The translations under genes were made by a program, and so were the position numbers. A stretch of 62,147 bases of DNA from a virus, in IMG/VR virus record IMGVR_UViG_3300047472_000433, positions 1 through 62,147 of that record; one strand, given 5' to 3'. Shown one piece after another: positions 1,257-18,822 of this stretch. Numbering within the stretch: the first letter of the stretch is position 1; every line of letters begins with the position of its first letter. The notes below the pieces were generated by a model that worked only from the letters and a program-made list of their open reading frames with translations, did not search any database and was not told where the DNA came from.

Positions 1257-1883
1257 CTAGTCGCCATCCTCGCGCTCGTCAAATCCGAGAGGTAGTTGTG
1301 CCGCTTCGCCGAATACCTCGCGCATTCCCTTTTCAAGAATAGCATGGTCGGCCATGCTCGCTGTGCCGTCGCTCAGCCGCTGGCAAATGGGGATTGCCTG
1401 GTCTAGCTTCTCCAGCGTCATATCTCGATAGTGCTTCGTGCCGGCGACGGCGTTGTTGATCTTGTGGGCGGTCGAGAAAAGGATGCCGGTGTGACTTACC
1501 AAGCTCAGGGCGGCGTGGTGCAGCGGCAGCCGGTCGCGGTGACTGCTCAACCGCGTGCGCGACAATTCAGCCTCCAGTGCGACCATGCGATCCCATACTT
1601 TGGCCTGCAATTCGTAGCTGTAACTCATCGCCATCAGGCAGGCTTCGCGCTTGGGAAAGTGGTAGCACGGGTAGCTTTGACCATTCTGTTCGTTCCGATG
1701 GGTGCCGGAAAATTTTCCGACACCCTCACCGAGCACGCGCGGCGCCTTCTTCATAAGGTCTGCATGTTCTAGTTTTTTAAACGGCTTCTTCGGCGTCGCA
1801 CGCTCTTTCCGATCGGCGTTAATGAAATCCACCATTTCCATGCTGGGCATGGTGGGCTCAAAGTGGCGGATCGGGCCGCTCAC
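1257..1883 (-). CDS. Rha-family phage regulatory protein, module 1
   Basis: A 208-residue protein of the phage Rha (pRha) type. Residues about 15-110 carry the conserved core, ending in a predicted helix rich in M, Y and E around the words SYELQAK and MVALEAEL. Rha proteins are phage regulators often encoded beside BRO/KilA-type antirepressors. Its start overlaps the stop of the upstream BRO-N gene (ATGA), so translation is probably coupled. A near-copy, roughly 80 percent identical by eye, lies at 16535-17158 next to a second BRO-N gene. Divergence is concentrated at residues about 50-72, around a palindrome in the DNA. The C-terminal half has no recognised function. Confidence 0.8.
   Translation of the reverse strand: MSGPIRHFEPTMPSMEMVDFINADRKERATPKKPFKKLEHADLMKKAPRVLGEGVGKFSGTHRNEQNGQSYPCYHFPKREACLMAMSYSYELQAKVWDRMVALEAELSRTRLSSHRDRLPLHHAALSLVSHTGILFSTAHKINNAVAGTKHYRDMTLEKLDQAIPICQRLSDGTASMADHAILEKGMREVFGEAAQLPLGFDEREDGD
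1700..1725. repeat. AAAATTTT-centred palindrome inside rha copy 1
   Basis: A 26-bp inverted repeat (GGGTGCCGGAAAA/TTTTCCGACACCC) with a single mismatched pair (1705/1720). Related palindromes occur in rha copy 2 (16975-17000) and downstream of the second Mnt-like gene (18896-18919, and imperfectly 18930-18955). Confidence 0.6.
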
Positions 1884-2719
1884 ACCATTGCCCCCAGTTG
1901 CGCGCGCAGTGGTGTATCAAGATCATTGGCGTTAATCTCCCCGAAACAAACCAGCATGCGGCGTGACATTTCCCGCATCGCCTCGCTCAGCACCTTGAAA
2001 TCGCGGTACAGCGCGTTGAGGTGATCCTTGCGTACAAGGCTTGACTCGGTCGCATCGATCACCTTTGTTCCGTGCTCGTGCGTGATGACCAGCTGTCGGC
2101 GGCTGTATTTCTCAGCCTCATCGCCCATCAGTTCCCACGTCACCGGCATCGATGCGAAGAAGTCGCGTGCCGCTTCGAACTGATCGGCACGCAATTTTTG
2201 AACGTCGCAAATCTGAAACTTTGCCTCAACGGCGTCCGCTGCATTTTTGATAGCAGCCCTCATCGCCGCCGCACGATTCATCGGGTCGGGGATCGCCGCT
2301 ACCCGTTCCGCGATGCGACGCTTGATGATATCGCCCAGCGCGACCACCTGGGCCGAAGCGATTAGGGCGGGCGCAGCGGGCACTTCGCGTTTGATTTCAG
2401 CATCGATCAGGTCCAACACCCATGCGCGGAAAGCCTTCGCCACGTCCGTGCGGGCGAACATCGCCAGCAGGTGCGCGCCGCGCAATGAGAAGATGCGAAC
2501 GGGCTGCATGCCGCCGGCCGTCTTCAGCTTGAGCACGCGCGTCATCGACTTGGTGAATTCGTCGGCGTGACGGGCAAACACGCGAGCCAGCGATTTGCCT
2601 TCCGACTTATAGCCGAGCGCGGTCTCGATCTGCGGCAGACGGAACCAAGTCTGATGATCGCGGTGCAAGGGTTTGATCTCGACGCCTTGAAACGCCAACG
2701 TGGTCATGGTAGTATTCAT
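1880..2719 (-). CDS. BRO-N antirepressor (Ant), module 1
   Basis: The N-terminal ~115 residues form a BRO-N domain (ALGYKSEGKSLARVFARH, then RIFSLRGAHLLAMFARTDVA), typical of phage antirepressors that bind and inactivate repressors. The C-terminal half is a variable region and differs from the second copy at 17155-18156, while the N-terminal half is nearly identical. The start at 2719 is chosen because GAGG lies nine bases upstream and this stretch is the one conserved in both copies; the frame is open further upstream to 2752. The gene follows an Arc-like repressor gene and a hairpin, as ant follows arc in P22. The following rha gene overlaps by four bases. Confidence 0.85.
   Translation of the reverse strand: MNTTMTTLAFQGVEIKPLHRDHQTWFRLPQIETALGYKSEGKSLARVFARHADEFTKSMTRVLKLKTAGGMQPVRIFSLRGAHLLAMFARTDVAKAFRAWVLDLIDAEIKREVPAAPALIASAQVVALGDIIKRRIAERVAAIPDPMNRAAAMRAAIKNAADAVEAKFQICDVQKLRADQFEAARDFFASMPVTWELMGDEAEKYSRRQLVITHEHGTKVIDATESSLVRKDHLNALYRDFKVLSEAMREMSRRMLVCFGEINANDLDTPLRAQLGAMV
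2687..2715 (+). promoter_or_regulatory. Predicted antisense promoter inside ant (sar-like), module 1
   Basis: On plus, TTGAAA (2687-2692), a 17-bp spacer and TAGTAT (2710-2715) form a sigma-70-like promoter within the first codons of ant. The same sequence is present without change in module 2 (18124-18152). It would start an RNA at about 2722, just past the ant start codon and running across its ribosome-binding site. Confidence 0.5.
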
Positions 2720-2721
2720 TT

Positions 2722-2796
2722 TGTTAAGCCTCATGTATGTGGTATTTGACATAAGCCCCGAACCCTGCCGCCAAGCTTGTTCGGGGCTTTTCTTTT
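2722..2796 (+). ncRNA. Predicted sar-like antisense RNA to the ant leader, module 1
   Basis: Predicted from the promoter at 2687-2715 and the terminator at 2753-2796, giving about 72 nt. The RNA would be complementary to the ant Shine-Dalgarno region (GAGG on minus, within 2724-2732) and to most of the arc-ant gap. Phage P22 has a small antisense RNA, sar, in the same place with the same target and a similar length. Its existence here is inferred from sequence only. Confidence 0.5.
2753..2796 (+). terminator. Intrinsic terminator in the arc-ant gap, module 1
   Basis: An 11-bp stem (AAGCCCCGAAC 2753-2763 with GTTCGGGGCTT 2779-2789) followed by TTTTCTTTT on plus. The T-rich tail is on the plus side, so it ends plus-strand transcripts; no plus-strand protein gene precedes it. 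Read on minus it is a hairpin between arc and ant. Confidence 0.7.
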
Positions 2797-2962
2797 ATGT
2801 TGCATTCCGTTGCCGCTCTTTTTCGGCGCGACGTTGCTCGAGACAGAGCACGATGAAATTATTGGTGCTGCGTTGATCCTTTGCTGCTTCGCTCACGACC
2901 CATTTCTTTAACTCTTCCGGCATCCTCAGGCCAAACGGCCCAGTTTTTGGCGCCATACCCAT
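2795..2962 (-). CDS. Arc-like ribbon-helix-helix repressor, module 1
   Basis: A 55-residue protein with the Arc/MetJ ribbon-helix-helix pattern: the strand GPFGLRMP (compare PQFNLRWP in P22 Arc, from general knowledge), helix EELKKWVVSEAAKD, then RSTNNFIVLCLEQRR as the second helix. It would dimerise and bind operator DNA through the strand. The longer frame reaching 3196 crosses the operator and the divergent gene, so the ATG at 2960-2962 is preferred. It is the first gene of the arc-ant-rha operon and lies divergent from a Mnt-like gene, with a 38-bp palindrome between them. Confidence 0.75.
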   Translation of the reverse strand: MGMAPKTGPFGLRMPEELKKWVVSEAAKDQRSTNNFIVLCLEQRRAEKERQRNAT

Positions 2963-2994
2963 GTAATCCTCCGTGTATCGGTGTGCTATCATTT

Positions 2995-3032
2995 GTGCTA
3001 CTACAGTGCTTATACTAGCACCGTAGTAGCAC
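2995..3032. promoter_or_regulatory. 38-bp palindromic operator between divergent arc-like and mnt-like genes
   Basis: Outer arms GTGCTACTAC (2995-3004) and GTAGTAGCAC (3023-3032) are perfect inverted repeats; inner arms GTGCT (3006-3010) and AGCAC (3017-3021) share the same centre (3013.5). The centre reads TATACT on plus and overlaps TATAAG on minus, so both divergent promoters may have -10 elements inside the operator. An additional GTGCTA half-site occurs just upstream (2983-2988). Confidence 0.65.
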
Positions 3033-3059
3033 CACTTCAAGAACTTTATGGAAAATTTT

Positions 3060-3479
3060 ATGGCTCGTACTGATCCGCAGGTGAATATCAGGATGCAGGC
3101 TGAGTTAAAAGCGCGCCTTGAGGCTGGGGCTGCTATGTCCGGGCGCAGCTTGAACTCGGAGATTATTGAGAGACTCAACTCTACATTTTCGATCAACCCC
3201 GAGCGGGCGCTGAAGACGATCGAAAGTCAGACGGCACTGGTCGGCCTAATGGGGCGCCAATTGGCAATGATGGCCGAATTGGCAAAAAAGGGAAATCCTG
3301 ACAAGTTGGAGCAAATTCTTCTGATCGAAACGCTCGCTCAAACTTTGTCTCAGGGCGACTACCATAGCGCACTCGAGGTCACTGGCGATATGCGCCAGCT
3401 CAGTGCCAACAAAGCAGGGCAACGCAAGGAAACACCTGCCAATTCCCGCATTCCTTCAAAAAAAACGCCAAAGACTTAA
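3060..3479 (+). CDS. Mnt-like ribbon-helix-helix repressor, module 1
   Basis: A 139-residue protein whose first 45 residues match the Mnt/Arc fold: MARTDPQVNIRM strand, helix AELKARLEAGAAMSG, then RSLNSEIIERL. The start MARxDPxxNxRM resembles the start of P22 Mnt closely, so the ATG at 3060 is preferred over 3048. The rest is helical and polar and may serve tetramerisation. It is transcribed away from the Arc-like gene, as mnt is from arc in P22. A strong terminator follows at 3508-3536. Likely role: a maintenance repressor holding the antirepressor silent in the lysogen. Confidence 0.8.
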   Translation: MARTDPQVNIRMQAELKARLEAGAAMSGRSLNSEIIERLNSTFSINPERALKTIESQTALVGLMGRQLAMMAELAKKGNPDKLEQILLIETLAQTLSQGDYHSALEVTGDMRQLSANKAGQRKETPANSRIPSKKTPKT

Positions 3480-14100: not shown

Positions 14101-16095
14101 GAGACGGAAACTCTCGGCAGAGTTTGCAGCCTGCGCGGTCGCGCGCTTGGCATCGATATCGTCGATCTGCTTCTGCGTCCTCGCCTCTTCAGCAACGGTC
14201 GCGTTGTCATGTGCAGCTAGAGCGTCAATTTCCTTGTCGTAAGCGGCGATCTGGGCCGCGGCCGTGTCGGCGCTATATTTCCGCTTGTTGTTATAGAAAT
14301 CATCGTCCGACAACTCGCCAGCCTTGCGGTACATATCGTCGAGCGTGCTGAGGTCGGCGTTATGCTTCTTCGCGGCTGCCGCCTCGTCGTCGTAGCGCTT
14401 GAGTTGGTCCTGCAACTCCGTGTTGGCAGCTTGGTCAACCTTTGCGGTCGCTGGCTTGCCTGGCGTGTCACGGTAGTTCGGCGTACCGACGTAGACCGAC
14501 TTGGCGAGCGCTGTCTGGGCGGCCTGCTGCTCAGCCGCGCTTTTGTCTGCATTCGCGATGCGCAGCGCTGTAGCCTTGGCGGCATAATCCTGGTCGATTT
14601 TGAGTGCAGCATCTGCGGCGGCTTTATGTTTCTGCAGTTGCGCAGCGGTCCGCTCATCGAAGGCCCGCTGAAACCGGTCAACAGTGCCCGCCAAAGTCAC
14701 CTGGGATTCTTCGTAGTCGGCCTGCTCCTTCGCGAAAGCCGCCTTACGCTGGGCCTCGATTGCGTTGTAAGCGGCCAGCGAATCGGTAGAATTTGCCTCT
14801 TTTGGCGCCGTTGCCTGAATTTGATCGTACTTTGCGTTGATGCTCGCACCAGCGGCCTGGTGCCCGGCAAAAGTACCAGCCATCTTCGCACCCGTCAAAA
14901 CGTTGTCGATGGCATTTGCCACGCCGACGAAGATCGCAGCCAAATCATGCCCCCAAGCCTGCAACTCATTATTCTTGGCAAGTTCTTTGATCTCGCCGCT
15001 TGCGTCTTTCAGATGATCGGTCCAGGCCATCACTGCGACGGAGAGAACTTCATTGAACGTTTCGCCGAACGTCGTTTTGAAATCTTCCGTGTACCGCTCG
15101 GCAGATTTGAGTTGCTTGCCAACCGTATCCATGCTCGCGGCGTATGCGCCGGCGATATCAGTGCCATGTTCGATGACGGCGGAAACGCGGGCATTGACGC
15201 GCTCATTTTCACTGAGGCCAGCCGTGGTGGTGCCGATGGCCTCGGCGGCCTTGCGATAGGCGTCCTCAAAGTTGACGTTTAGGCCTATGTTTCTCAGGAT
15301 TAGCGTGTTGCCGCGCCCAATACCATCCACCAAACGATCAAATGCGGCGGACGAGCTGATGTTGCCGATCACGGCTGCGTCTTGGGCGATGCGCGCCAGG
15401 TTGGTCGCATTGGCCAGGTCGACGTGAGCCTGAACGAGCTTGACGGCCGACTGGCGCGACTCGACCAGCGTAATTCCCTGGCGGGCAATGGCATCGGTCG
15501 CGGCATTCATTTGCACCACCGTATATCCCGCCGTCGCACCGACGACCTGAGAGACTACCCCAAGGGTTTCGTAGCGCGCAGCCAAAAGCGTTGCATCTTT
15601 TATGTAATCGGCGATCTGCAGGGCGGCATAGCCGGCCGCCAAAAATTTCAATGCGTCGGACCACTGAGTGGAGCGCGCAGCAGCTTGGGCTTGAGCGTCG
15701 GCTGCCGACCTCGCCTCATCCTCGAACGCCTTCAATTTATCGATCAGGTCCTGCGTTTGCTGAGTCACGCCAAGTTGCGCGGCCTGATAGGCTGCGAGTT
15801 GTGAGCGACTCATTCCAAGCACGGCGACCTGATCCTTTAGCTTGTCGATGAAATAACTCTGACCGGTCGTCAAGGCGTCCACACTCGTACCCAGCGCCTT
15901 ATTTGCGTCGGTATTCGCACGCGACTGGCTTGCCTGCGCCTGCATGATTTTCGAGGTATTGGCCATCTGGCCATTCGACACGCGCACGCGCTGCTCAACG
16001 TTGGCGGCTGCATCTGCAAAATCGTCCAGCGCAGCCTTGCCGTCGCGCACTGGGCGCGAATCGATTTCAATTCCGAGGCTTGCAAAATCAGTCAT
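11176..16095 (-). CDS. Tape measure protein with DUF4214 segment
   Basis: The longest gene in the window, 1639 residues, with long alanine-rich coiled coils (about residues 20-160 and 480-850), a glycine/alanine-rich hydrophobic region (about 870-1010) and further coiled coils to 1500. That is the build of a tail length tape measure. Near the C-terminus (about 1525-1575) is a DUF4214-like segment, NLYETLLNRQGEAAGLQYW followed by FVASPEYA. It sets tail length and helps DNA delivery. Two intrinsic terminators lie directly upstream, and the normal upstream neighbour (tail chaperone) is displaced by a 3.3-kb insertion. Confidence 0.85.
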   Translation of the reverse strand: MTDFASLGIEIDSRPVRDGKAALDDFADAAANVEQRVRVSNGQMANTSKIMQAQASQSRANTDANKALGTSVDALTTGQSYFIDKLKDQVAVLGMSRSQLAAYQAAQLGVTQQTQDLIDKLKAFEDEARSAADAQAQAAARSTQWSDALKFLAAGYAALQIADYIKDATLLAARYETLGVVSQVVGATAGYTVVQMNAATDAIARQGITLVESRQSAVKLVQAHVDLANATNLARIAQDAAVIGNISSSAAFDRLVDGIGRGNTLILRNIGLNVNFEDAYRKAAEAIGTTTAGLSENERVNARVSAVIEHGTDIAGAYAASMDTVGKQLKSAERYTEDFKTTFGETFNEVLSVAVMAWTDHLKDASGEIKELAKNNELQAWGHDLAAIFVGVANAIDNVLTGAKMAGTFAGHQAAGASINAKYDQIQATAPKEANSTDSLAAYNAIEAQRKAAFAKEQADYEESQVTLAGTVDRFQRAFDERTAAQLQKHKAAADAALKIDQDYAAKATALRIANADKSAAEQQAAQTALAKSVYVGTPNYRDTPGKPATAKVDQAANTELQDQLKRYDDEAAAAKKHNADLSTLDDMYRKAGELSDDDFYNNKRKYSADTAAAQIAAYDKEIDALAAHDNATVAEEARTQKQIDDIDAKRATAQAANSAESFRLDEEERLRQKAIADASDDAVNKYISGLNQEAQKQEESNSSKETSRGAIERLTAARLDEAAATTTQTIAAAAENGESESAIEFYQKTLVALNNEADAHRRVAAAMDQKDVIAANAMAAKAASTAWDSTAKHVEDTLADAIANGGDKAWKKLKTSIVSQVLSIPINFVGSLAASILNPTAAQAVGAATSGTGDVGSLIGAANAASTAYKVATGGVAATVGGGISSFGSALGSSTIAEFGSGVSGSATAAATALGGELTSAASAGAAFTSALSTAVPWIAGAVVAYKVLDGIFSDGPESDTRLTFASNNTAGNVSVNERGNEGQDESYIGGSGASSFGTFGVSSSFWTDTNSAAVQALIKNVATTDDALATYLTADEKTAVTTALTDHTDTVHTGAEGSDQNASGQLDSVFSDRINTILNAVEPGLGALEAGFTGTSEQLATEAEALLSYRDSLKDSGVAIFGAQVTLEQIAALKTPTEATSAALTRVTNEFTATNAVAAAMGKDASTAFGAVGLASEAARAQLIQLAGGVDTLTSETASYSQNYLSSAEQLAPTLKAVTAAMDAMGLSGVTTRAQFKDVVDSLDLSTTAGATEYAQLMALSDAFASVHDATVDATKSEADIASERADLQSQLDKMTLTSTQLLAQQRDALDASNQALFDQVQAAQALVDAQSAASDARSALSDAYNNEAQSMQSVIDAKKADAAATLQQIDALKLGSDSILSPEQQLAESKRQFDTATGADKDSAATTYLDAAKNYYGSSQDYATAYNQVQTALKASAAASTSAASNEQQQLDAMTASVSVLTSINAGVLSVQQAIANLNKANVAATTPSGVGPNDIENLYETLLNRQGEAAGLQYWQTLANAGETLAQITAQFVASPEYATVHGSHANGLDFVPFDGYRAELHHGERVQTAAQARGSDDSATQSKAQTAAILRQNDLIEKQNTLLEGLSGKVASSDDIRSLKQHMATTLSRKAVPA

Positions 16096-16534: not shown

Positions 16535-17158
16535 CTAGCCACTATCATCCGGGTCATCAAGCCCGAGCGGCAGTTGCGGCGTCTCCCCGAATACTTCGCG
16601 CATGCCCTTTTCGAGAAGCGCGTGATCGGTCTTGCTTGCGGTGCCGTCGCTGATCCGCTGACAGATCGGGATTGCCAGGTCCAACTTCTCCAGCGTCATG
16701 TCGCGGTAATGTTTCGTGCCGGCGACGGCGTTGTTGATCTTGTGGGCGGCCGAGAAGAGGATGCCTGTGTGACTTACCAAGTTCAGCGCGGCATGGTGCA
16801 GCGGCAGCCGGTCGCGGTGACTGCTCAAGCGCGTGCGTGACAGCTCCGCTTCCAGAGCGACCATGCGGTCCCACACCTTGGCCTGCAATTCGTAGCTGTA
16901 GCTCATGGCCATCAGGCAAGCTTCGCGCTTTGGAAAGTAATAGCACGGACGGTCCTGTCCGTTCTTACCCGAATAGACGCCGGAAAATTTTCCGGCGTCT
17001 CCACCAAGCACGCGCGGAACCTTTTTGATGAGGTCAGAGTGCTCCAGTTTCGTGAACGGCTTTTCGGCCGTCGCCCTCTCCTTCCGATCGGCGTTGATGA
17101 AGTCCACCATCTCCATACTGGACATGGTGGGCTCGAAGTCGCGGATCGGGCCGCTCAT
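16535..17158 (-). CDS. Rha-family phage regulatory protein, module 2
   Basis: A 207-residue paralogue of the protein at 1257-1883. Almost all of residues 72-175 are identical, with differences in residues about 30-70 and at the C-terminus. It contains a perfect 26-bp AAAATTTT palindrome. Its start overlaps the BRO-N stop (ATGA). It is part of the second arc-ant-rha operon, inserted between tail chaperone and tape measure. Confidence 0.8.
   Translation of the reverse strand: MSGPIRDFEPTMSSMEMVDFINADRKERATAEKPFTKLEHSDLIKKVPRVLGGDAGKFSGVYSGKNGQDRPCYYFPKREACLMAMSYSYELQAKVWDRMVALEAELSRTRLSSHRDRLPLHHAALNLVSHTGILFSAAHKINNAVAGTKHYRDMTLEKLDLAIPICQRISDGTASKTDHALLEKGMREVFGETPQLPLGLDDPDDSG
16975..17000. 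repeat. Perfect 26-bp palindrome inside rha copy 2
   Basis: AGACGCCGGAAAA/TTTTCCGGCGTCT, perfect across 26 bp. It occupies the same place in the gene as the near-perfect palindrome in copy 1 (codons for GKFSG), while flanking codons differ, so the symmetry has been kept with different arm sequences. Confidence 0.6.
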
Positions 17159-18156
17159 GCTGCCGGCCCAGCAATCTGGTGCGCAAAAGCGATCCGCTCC
17201 AGAGCATCATCGGGATTAGGCGCCCGGCTGAAAAGCACGTTCAGCCCCTGCTCGCGCTGATGATCAGTCACCTCCGTCAGCAGCGCTTTCAGGCGCCCTT
17301 GCCAGTTAGCCATACGCCGCCGACTCATTTCCCCAAACTCAACCGCGAGATGCAGCGCCTCGATCCGCAGGCGAGCTCCGGTGACATCGTGACCATCTTT
17401 CGCTAGCGCTTCCATCAATTCCAGTTCAGGCTTGCGATTGCGCTTGTCAAGCAAGACTGACGCGGACAGGCATTCGTTACCGAAGCTTTTGTCGCGATCA
17501 TGAGGCTCAGCCGTAGCGAGCGGGAAGTTATATTTCGCCGGCGCCGATGCTGGCAGATCGTCCACCAACTCCCAGCTGACGTTGAACGATTCGAGGAAAT
17601 CGCGCGCCACCAGGAACTGGTCGGCGCGGAGCTGCTTAACGTCGCTGACATGCAGGTTTGCCTTGATGGCCGCTGCAGCATTCTTTATGGCCACCCTCTG
17701 CGCCACAGCGCGGTTCATCGGATCGGGGATCATGGCAACCTTTTCCGCGATACGACGAGTCACGATACTGCCCAATGCGCTGATCTGGGCCGGCACGATC
17801 AATGCAGGCACGGCCGGCGCCTGACGTTTGATTTCGGCATCGATCAGATCCAGAACCCATACACGAAACGCCTTCGCCACGTCGGTGCGAGCAAACATCG
17901 CCAGCAGGTGCGCGCCGCGCAGCGAGAAGATGCGGACGGGCTGCATGCCGCCGGCCGTCTTCAGCTTGAGCACGCGCGTCATGGATTTGGTGAACTCGTC
18001 GGCGTGACGGGCGAAGATGCGCGCCAGCGATGTGCCCTTGGCTGCATAACCCAAGGCTGCCTCGATCTGCGGTAGGCGCAGCCAAGTTTGATGATCGCGG
18101 TGCAGCGGCTTGATTTCGACGCCTTGAAACGCCAACGTGGTCATGGTAGTATTCAT
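17155..18156 (-). CDS. BRO-N antirepressor (Ant), module 2
   Basis: 333 residues from the conserved ATG at 18154-18156 (GAGG nine bases upstream). The BRO-N domain (about residues 10-125) is nearly identical to module 1, including RIFSLRGAHLLAMFARTDVA. After about residue 185 the protein diverges fully and carries a different, longer helical C-terminus, consistent with a different repressor partner. The rha gene follows with a four-base overlap, and an Arc-like gene precedes. Confidence 0.85.
   Translation of the reverse strand: MNTTMTTLAFQGVEIKPLHRDHQTWLRLPQIEAALGYAAKGTSLARIFARHADEFTKSMTRVLKLKTAGGMQPVRIFSLRGAHLLAMFARTDVAKAFRVWVLDLIDAEIKRQAPAVPALIVPAQISALGSIVTRRIAEKVAMIPDPMNRAVAQRVAIKNAAAAIKANLHVSDVKQLRADQFLVARDFLESFNVSWELVDDLPASAPAKYNFPLATAEPHDRDKSFGNECLSASVLLDKRNRKPELELMEALAKDGHDVTGARLRIEALHLAVEFGEMSRRRMANWQGRLKALLTEVTDHQREQGLNVLFSRAPNPDDALERIAFAHQIAGPAA
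18124..18152 (+). promoter_or_regulatory. Predicted antisense promoter inside ant (sar-like), module 2
   Basis: TTGAAA (18124-18129), 17-bp spacer, TAGTAT (18147-18152) on plus. The sequence is identical to module 1 from the -35 through to the ant Shine-Dalgarno region. Confidence 0.5.
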
Positions 18157-18158
18157 TT

Positions 18159-18232
18159 TGTTAAGCCTCTTCACAAGTGGTTGACATGAGCCCCGAGCGA
18201 TCCGCCAAGATTGCGTTCGGGGCTTTTCTTAT
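18159..18232 (+). ncRNA. Predicted sar-like antisense RNA, module 2
   Basis: About 73 nt from the predicted start after TAGTAT to the T-run of the terminator at 18189-18232. It covers the ant ribosome-binding site. Compared with module 1 the first ~15 nt and the terminator stem are conserved, while the segment between (18169-18180) and part of the loop differ, so the two RNAs might discriminate between the two ant messages. Confidence 0.5.
18189..18232 (+). terminator. Intrinsic terminator in the arc-ant gap, module 2
   Basis: AGCCCCGA (18189-18196) pairs with TCGGGGCT (18217-18224), followed by TTTCTTATT on plus. Same place and orientation as 2753-2796. Confidence 0.7.
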
Positions 18233-18426
18233 TGGGCATTCTGCTCAGCGATTTTGATAGCCTTGATTCCCTGCTCTAGCAGAAATACCAGCTCACTATT
18301 CATCGAACGGCGATTCTGCGCGGCCAAGACCTTAACCTGAGGTCGAAGCCCCTGGGGCATGCGCAAGTTAAACTGATCAGAGGACCGCCCAACAACTTCA
18401 TCCTGGTTCATTTCCATCTCCGTCAT
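18229..18426 (-). CDS. Arc-like ribbon-helix-helix repressor, module 2
   Basis: 65 residues with the Arc pattern: strand SSDQFNLRMP (about 15-24), helix GLRPQVKVLAAQN, then RRSMNSELVFLLEQGI. The NRRSMNSEL segment matches the Arc/Mnt consensus better than module 1. Several in-frame ATGs (18426, 18417, 18411) are possible starts. It is first in the second ant operon and divergent from the Mnt-like gene at 18520. Confidence 0.75.
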   Translation of the reverse strand: MTEMEMNQDEVVGRSSDQFNLRMPQGLRPQVKVLAAQNRRSMNSELVFLLEQGIKAIKIAEQNAQ

Positions 18427-18457
18427 GGTTAAACATCATGGATGAATAATACTCGCC

Positions 18458-18491
18458 ATTTCATATCATCGCAAGTGCATATCATTGAAAT
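18458..18491. promoter_or_regulatory. Candidate operator between divergent repressor genes, module 2
   Basis: ATTTCA (18458-18463) and TGAAAT (18486-18491) form inverted arms. Inside, CATATCAT occurs twice as a direct repeat (18462-18469, 18478-18485) with 16-bp spacing. There is no resemblance to the GTGCTACTAC operator of module 1, which suggests separate specificity. Confidence 0.4.
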
Positions 18492-18519
18492 ATATTAAAT
18501 GGCTAGTATCATCTCCGCC

Positions 18520-18822
18520 ATGACAGAGAAACCTAAGCCACCAAGCAGAACAGCAGATCAGTTCGTCATCCGTCTCCCGGAGGGCATGCGCGAATCGATC
18601 GCTGCTGCGGCAAAAAACAACAACCGCAGCATGAACGCCGAAATCATCGCGCGCATCGCGCAAACCTTCGGACCGTCCGACCTGGACACACGCATAAACG
18701 ACGCCGTCGAGAGCAAGCTCTCGACCATGGAGAAGTGGCTCACTGAGCTCCTGACGAATCATGCTCAGGAACTTGCCGGCAGCAAGAGCGTCAGCAAGCC
18801 GCCCCTCAAAAAAAAATCCTGA
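18520..18822 (+). CDS. Mnt-like ribbon-helix-helix repressor, module 2
   Basis: 100 residues from ATG 18520 (an upstream ATG at 18499 is also open). Ribbon-helix-helix: strand ADQFVIRLP, helix [14 protein letters not shown], then [15 protein letters not shown]-terminal helix (about 55-85) could tetramerise. It is divergent from the module 2 Arc-like gene and followed by a terminator, exactly as in module 1, but sequence identity with the module 1 Mnt-like protein is low. Confidence 0.75.

Follow-up and report, generated by a model that had tools for sequence, protein, structure and literature searches.

To our knowledge, the sar RNA of bacteriophage P22 has been the single textbook case of its kind since 1987. 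The literature describes sar in P22 and epsilon34, and of the listed phage records whose DNA includes a P22-like sar, only the entries for these two phages annotate it. In P22, pairing of sar with ant mRNA prevents the antirepressor from being translated, and sar is required for the proper establishment of lysogeny (PMC12197685, PMC2629481). The P22 record (NC_002371) places sar as a misc_RNA at 15021–15090 (70 nt), with its promoter at 15097–15125 within ant codons 3–12, the ant start at 15091, and a terminator that shares 2 nt with the arc stop codon (15022). A second phage antisense RNA that limits antirepressor synthesis is the c4 RNA of P1 and P7 (PMC12197685), and one Rfam-called sar RNA, of low similarity, is expressed in Mycobacterium mucogenicum (PMC6582537). 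A full-text search of the open-licence literature returned no description of sar with Bro-N antirepressors.

The window analysed here, a 62,147-nt stretch of viral DNA (IMGVR_UViG_3300047472_000433), contains two mosaic immI-like modules (1257–3479 and 16535–18822) in which the ant N-terminus and sar region are near-identical and the ant C-termini have been replaced (Table 1). In both, divergent Mnt-like and Arc-like RHH genes are present, arc is followed by ant, and the putative sar gene lies between arc and ant on the strand opposite ant. The two Ant proteins have 79% of amino acids in common over residues 1–200, and 54 nt from the Shine-Dalgarno sequence (SD) to codon 13 are identical between modules; arc2 and mnt2 are strongly diverged from arc1 and mnt1. 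Synonymous change is missing between ant1 and ant2 over codons 1–16, which in a pairwise test is not significant alone (p 0.22). The ant1 start codon is ATG 2719–2717, with the SD GAGG at 2732–2729, and the ant1 stop is overlapped by the second gene of its operon. The arc1 product scores below the Pfam Arc cut-off and passes those for HicB and the PHROG Arc-like repressor. Because a palindrome with 16-nt arms separates arc1 from mnt1, we infer Pant and its operator at this point; the palindrome overlaps TTGAAG-N17-TAGTAT on the minus strand (3040–3012), a candidate Pant read by eye that scores 8/12, under the limit of the promoter scanner. In the P22 record, the mnt repressor (NC_002371.2, 14519–14770) bears the label 'partition protein ATPase', a name that PHROGs 2685 and 795 also give to what look like Mnt-type RHH proteins; the misannotation appears to be spreading.

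Table 1. Features of the two antirepressor modules (positions in the window).
Feature	Position	Strand	Evidence or remarks
Second gene of ant1 operon	1257–1883	−	PHROG 63 anti-repressor match; weak Rha match
ant1, Bro-N antirepressor, predicted sar1 target	1880–2719	−	Pfam Bro-N E 3.6e-6; PHROG 5060 anti-repressor Ant E 1.9e-36
Psar1, TTGAAA-N17-TAGTAT, extended −10	2687–2715	+	inside ant1 codons 2–11
sar1, predicted 73–75 nt antisense RNA, two hairpins	2722–2796	+	fold z, model R3
sar1 5' hairpin	2722–2751	+	CCTC 2729–2732, complement of ant1 SD GAGG
sar1 intrinsic terminator	2753–2796	+	stem 2753–2763/2779–2789, then U-run
arc1, small RHH (Arc-like)	2795–2962	−	Pfam HicB 1.7e-4, Arc 2.5e-3; PHROG 228 Arc-like repressor 9.5e-6
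Near-perfect palindrome, 16-nt arms, between arc1 and mnt1	2995–3032		inferred operator
mnt1, divergent RHH (Mnt-like), MARTDPQVNIRM...	3060–3479	+	Pfam Arc E 6.8e-9
ant2, Bro-N antirepressor, predicted sar2 target	17155–18156	−	
Psar2, sequence as Psar1	18124–18152	+	
sar2, predicted antisense RNA of module 2	18159–18231	+	terminator shares 2 nt with arc2 stop
arc2, Arc-like RHH	18229–18426	−	Pfam Arc E 6.7e-14
mnt2, divergent RHH	18499–18822	+	Pfam Arc E 4.7e-17

A sequence-only reading of module 1 had noted a promoter in the early ant codons and a plus-strand intrinsic terminator across the arc–ant gap, and this arrangement over the ant start is confirmed. Psar1 consists of TTGAAA (2687–2692), a 17-nt spacer and TAGTAT (2710–2715), with TG one base ahead of the −10 box; the sequence is the same in module 2 and kept in two relatives (L015 and L016), a third (L014) has TTGGAA/TATTAT, and module 2 and all three relatives retain both promoter and terminator. 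Placed from the promoter, the transcription start site (TSS) is predicted at about 2722, an offset of +3 in both modules. The terminator tail reads TTCTTTT (2790–2796), its U-run sharing 2 nt with the arc1 stop codon (2795–2797), and the minus strand has no U-tract after the hairpin at 2753–2789; the terminator is therefore oriented plus only. The RNA had also been described as about 72 nt and antisense to the ant SD, of which the antisense placement stood and the length was corrected to 73–75 nt. The 75-nt form folds at −27.2 kcal/mol (z −4.66 against dinucleotide shuffles) and would form a 75-bp duplex with ant mRNA that includes the SD (2729–2732), complementarity being perfect from the SD to the arc stop.

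Promoters like Psar1 are not rare alone: about 20 promoter-like sequences occur in the 62-kb window, and shuffled sequences gave an expectation of 2.7 per 8 kb, similar to the observed frequency. A combined scan of both strands of the 62 kb, in which a promoter of at least 9/12 had to be followed by a hairpin (−12 kcal/mol or below) and a U-run at 45–90 nt from the TSS, returned exactly two places, with TSSs at 2722 and 18159, both of them starts of ant genes; simulated sequences gave a mean of 0.4 and a maximum of 2.

A search with the single protein found no relatives, and the exact DNA pattern of the promoter and start region had no match in viral contigs. A profile built from nine aligned Bro-N starts (A4) recovered 160 loci from viral and genome contigs, and the non-redundant set, including loci from phage and plasmid records, comprised 138 Bro-N loci. 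An RHH gene lay directly upstream on the same strand in 35 of the 138 according to a corrected RHH profile; an earlier profile with one out-of-frame seed had given 32 such arc-bearing loci, with the result unchanged. A strict antisense terminator ending 50–80 nt from the ant start was present at 24/35 arc-bearing and 7/103 arc-less loci (Fisher p 1.2e-12, for loci that are related and not independent samples). The expectation that the element would be found in other BRO-type modules was borne out: by sequence reading and folding it recurs at 33 of these 35 arc-bearing loci, both window modules counted, with nearly constant spacing from start codon to terminator, and arc-less loci seldom carry it. 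The two arc-bearing loci in which it was not found (L021 and L031) have short gaps (43 nt and 34 nt, respectively), and at L021 the RHH call is doubtful. Hosts in the survey included Acinetobacter, Psychrobacter, Morganella, Providencia, Citrobacter, Atlantibacter, Serratia, Comamonas and Massilia.

Two Acinetobacter phage or plasmid Bro-N loci (L010 and L011) keep a sar-like element with no Arc gene before ant, and have a divergent regulator instead. Pasteurellaceae Bro-N loci (L037, L044, L094, L109, L165 and others) carry, in place of the antisense hairpin, a sense terminator-like hairpin at −62 to −31 from ant, which suggests attenuation.

The antisense promoter at the ant start scored 8.8 in 33 sar-bearing clusters versus 5.8 in 90 others (Mann–Whitney p 2.6e-15), a score of 9 being reached by 70% of the former and 0% of the latter, and the predicted TSS always lay within 0–3 nt of the start codon. 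Part of the −35 box comes free with the protein, because it overlaps codons of the conserved F-Q/N/H motif of Bro-N proteins. A synonymous recoding test, which takes account of this overlap, gave 6.4 ± 0.3 for sar-bearing genes, with 0/200 recodings reaching the observed score; at arc-less loci the promoter score was no different from that of their own recodings. Turning to RNA structure, an alignment of 28 loci, with the window group left out, showed standard pairs in 91.5% of terminator stem cells and changes on both sides at 8 of 9 pairs. Both-side changes occupied 38 cells versus 13.7 ± 2.6 in shuffled alignments (0/500), and slid versions scored far lower. The covariation claim covers the terminator stem only, the 5' hairpin having been misaligned by MAFFT across all 33 RNAs.

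We thus consider it highly probable that the locus encodes a sar-type cis-antisense RNA blocking Ant translation, within a complete P22 immI-like unit (mnt-like, arc, sar, ant) that is present twice. At the level of sequence, this unit has the promoter, the terminator, the complementarity, and a conserved position and structure; by analogy with P22, the RNA would be made, its pairing would block translation, and Ant would inactivate a phage repressor. Each module would comprise a divergent Mnt-like repressor gene, a leftward operon of an Arc-like repressor gene and ant, and a rightward sar gene between them. RNA polymerase would start at Psar in the first ant codons, make 73–75 nt and end at the arc-adjoining terminator, and the RNA, displaying the anti-SD in its 5' hairpin, would base-pair with the ant leader and keep ribosomes from binding, so that little Ant would be made while Arc could be made from the same message. 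After infection, Pant would produce arc–ant mRNA, Arc would shut Pant and sar would hold Ant down; in the lysogen, Mnt would keep Pant off. Predicted duplexes of mismatched sar/ant pairs reach −91 and −100 kcal/mol, versus −151 and −153 for matched pairs, and sar1 and sar2 have common 5' ends; cross-regulation between the modules is therefore possible on modelled energies.

Other readings of the hairpin can be weighed against this evidence. The plus-strand terminator might only shield the arc/mnt control region against stray transcription running rightward, with no dedicated small RNA; a terminator alone accounts for the hairpin and U-run, and promoter-like sequences are common in the window. 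We regard this as improbable, since the antisense promoter has a constant position and a higher score than at arc-less loci or in synonymous recodings, its terminator keeps a nearly constant distance from the start codon, and P22 makes the RNA (PMC12197685). A hairpin acting in the sense strand of the ant leader, as attenuator, processing site or RBS-shielding structure, is very unlikely to be the explanation: the leader does fold into a mirror hairpin and the Pasteurellaceae loci have sense terminators, but here the U-run is on the antisense side with no U after the hairpin on the sense strand, just two sense terminators were seen among arc-bearing loci, and the antisense promoter is left unexplained. 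A sense-strand role may nevertheless exist in addition to the antisense RNA.

A role of the inverted repeat as a DNA operator, bound by Arc or a different RHH protein, would suit its place in an Arc-controlled operon and the habit of RHH proteins of binding short repeats. The palindrome between arc and mnt is, however, a likelier site, and the arc–ant stem has compensatory changes, variable loops and a directional U-run at its end, as an RNA helix would, which makes the operator reading scarcely credible. Hardly more tenable is a peptide encoded by the small RNA: module 1 offers an ATG at 2733, but this has no Shine-Dalgarno, its frame is missing from module 2, and conservation is lowest in the loop that surrounds it.

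The preferred reading, a sar-type antisense RNA, was further compared with P22 sar through covariance models. A covariance search across arc/Bro-N phages had been proposed in the sequence-only reading; three models free of P22 each found P22 sar at its annotated ends (E 9.3e-6 for R1, 1.6e-7 for R2 and 8e-6 for R3). R1 was trained with the window copies, and its matches there are by construction. R3, whose training leaves out P22, the window and three close relatives of the window, matched only the two predicted places in the window, weakly (E 0.07 for sar1 and 0.46 for sar2), and matched the relative L014 at E 0.003. The Rfam model RF00262, with a gathering cut-off of 43 bits, scored 97.8 bits on P22 sar and a sub-threshold 30–36 bits at the matching place in enterobacterial Bro-N relatives; it had no match at 2500–3100 of the window at E up to 10, and none window-wide at gathering. 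The Rfam family Betaproteobacteria_toxic_sRNA also gave a weak match (E 6.3), which was attributed to chance.

In the family to which the Atlantibacter locus belongs, R1 matched 36/198 genomes, in arc–ant gaps of Bro-N and P22_AR type and in a symR-like class; in the Massilia family it matched 3/294. In one of these Massilia-family genomes (L210, 908–1755), a window-like sar separates an Arc gene from that of a 196-residue protein with no match in Pfam, which is a candidate for a new type of antirepressor. In the phage record behind L015 (L217, 1501–1567), a KilA-N gene with no Arc gene beside it has a sar-like element on the strand opposite its start (E 0.008). The sar models also match a second antisense class (L189, L194–L198, L200, L202–L206, L175; ~1501–1570), many members of which face the start of a small enterobacterial ORF such as MATSKCTYIFAAINRS...; for seven of these, Rfam SymR (RF01809) matches sub-threshold (E 1e-3 to 1e-2). 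R1 is not specific to sar alone, because these symR-like elements match it, as does a tRNA, judged by eye (L218, E 0.14); K-12 symR is matched by neither R1 nor R2.

From the sequences compared, P22 sar appears to be one instance of a widespread brake on the exit from dormancy, one that protein annotation cannot see. If nearly every arc–ant pair comes with a sar, lysogeny control by antirepressors would normally carry a double lock: Arc and Mnt would act on transcription and the antisense RNA on translation. Because its geometry is fixed, sar is easy to annotate and testable in many prophages together, and the presence in a single phage of two modules whose sar RNAs are partly cross-complementary raises a testable question of cross-talk. 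It is also conceivable, though we lean slightly against it, that sar is a general and old part of Arc–antirepressor switches across Pseudomonadota that stays while the silenced protein is exchanged (Bro-N, P22_AR, the Pfam-less protein of L210 and perhaps the KilA-N protein of L217), and that it may share ancestry with SymR-like antisense RNAs, which are situated opposite small prophage genes of enterobacteria; if true, this would be a mobile class of antisense RNAs blocking ribosome-binding sites.

Among known systems, SymR (RF01809) of E. coli, 77 nt long and facing the start of symE, which it targets, is likewise cis-antisense and differs in target. The c4 RNA of P1 and P7 resembles the window RNA as a phage antisense RNA limiting antirepressor synthesis, but is transcribed upstream in the ant direction and pairs through short segments, whereas the window RNA would come from the strand opposite the ant leader and be fully complementary to it. 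The proposed likeness to P22 sar holds in location, orientation, target and length. P22 and both window modules have the gene order mnt–arc–sar–ant, a promoter in the first ant codons with the TSS (predicted in the window) beside the ant start, and a 2-nt overlap of terminator and arc stop; the same two hairpins as in the fold of P22 sar, the length of about 70 nt, the intrinsic terminator adjoining the arc stop and the complementarity to the ant SD are likewise predicted for the window copies. These differ in being two in one phage genome, in a larger terminator loop with CCGCCAAG, and in their target, which is Bro-N and not of the P22_AR_N family, P22 Ant being P22_AR_N/P22_AR_C. Judged on sequence, the window copies are sar-like in every testable design feature and lie outside the curated RF00262 family, the link to that family being by architecture and intermediates, not direct similarity; the case for common descent with P22 sar runs indirectly, through these intermediates, which make it likely.
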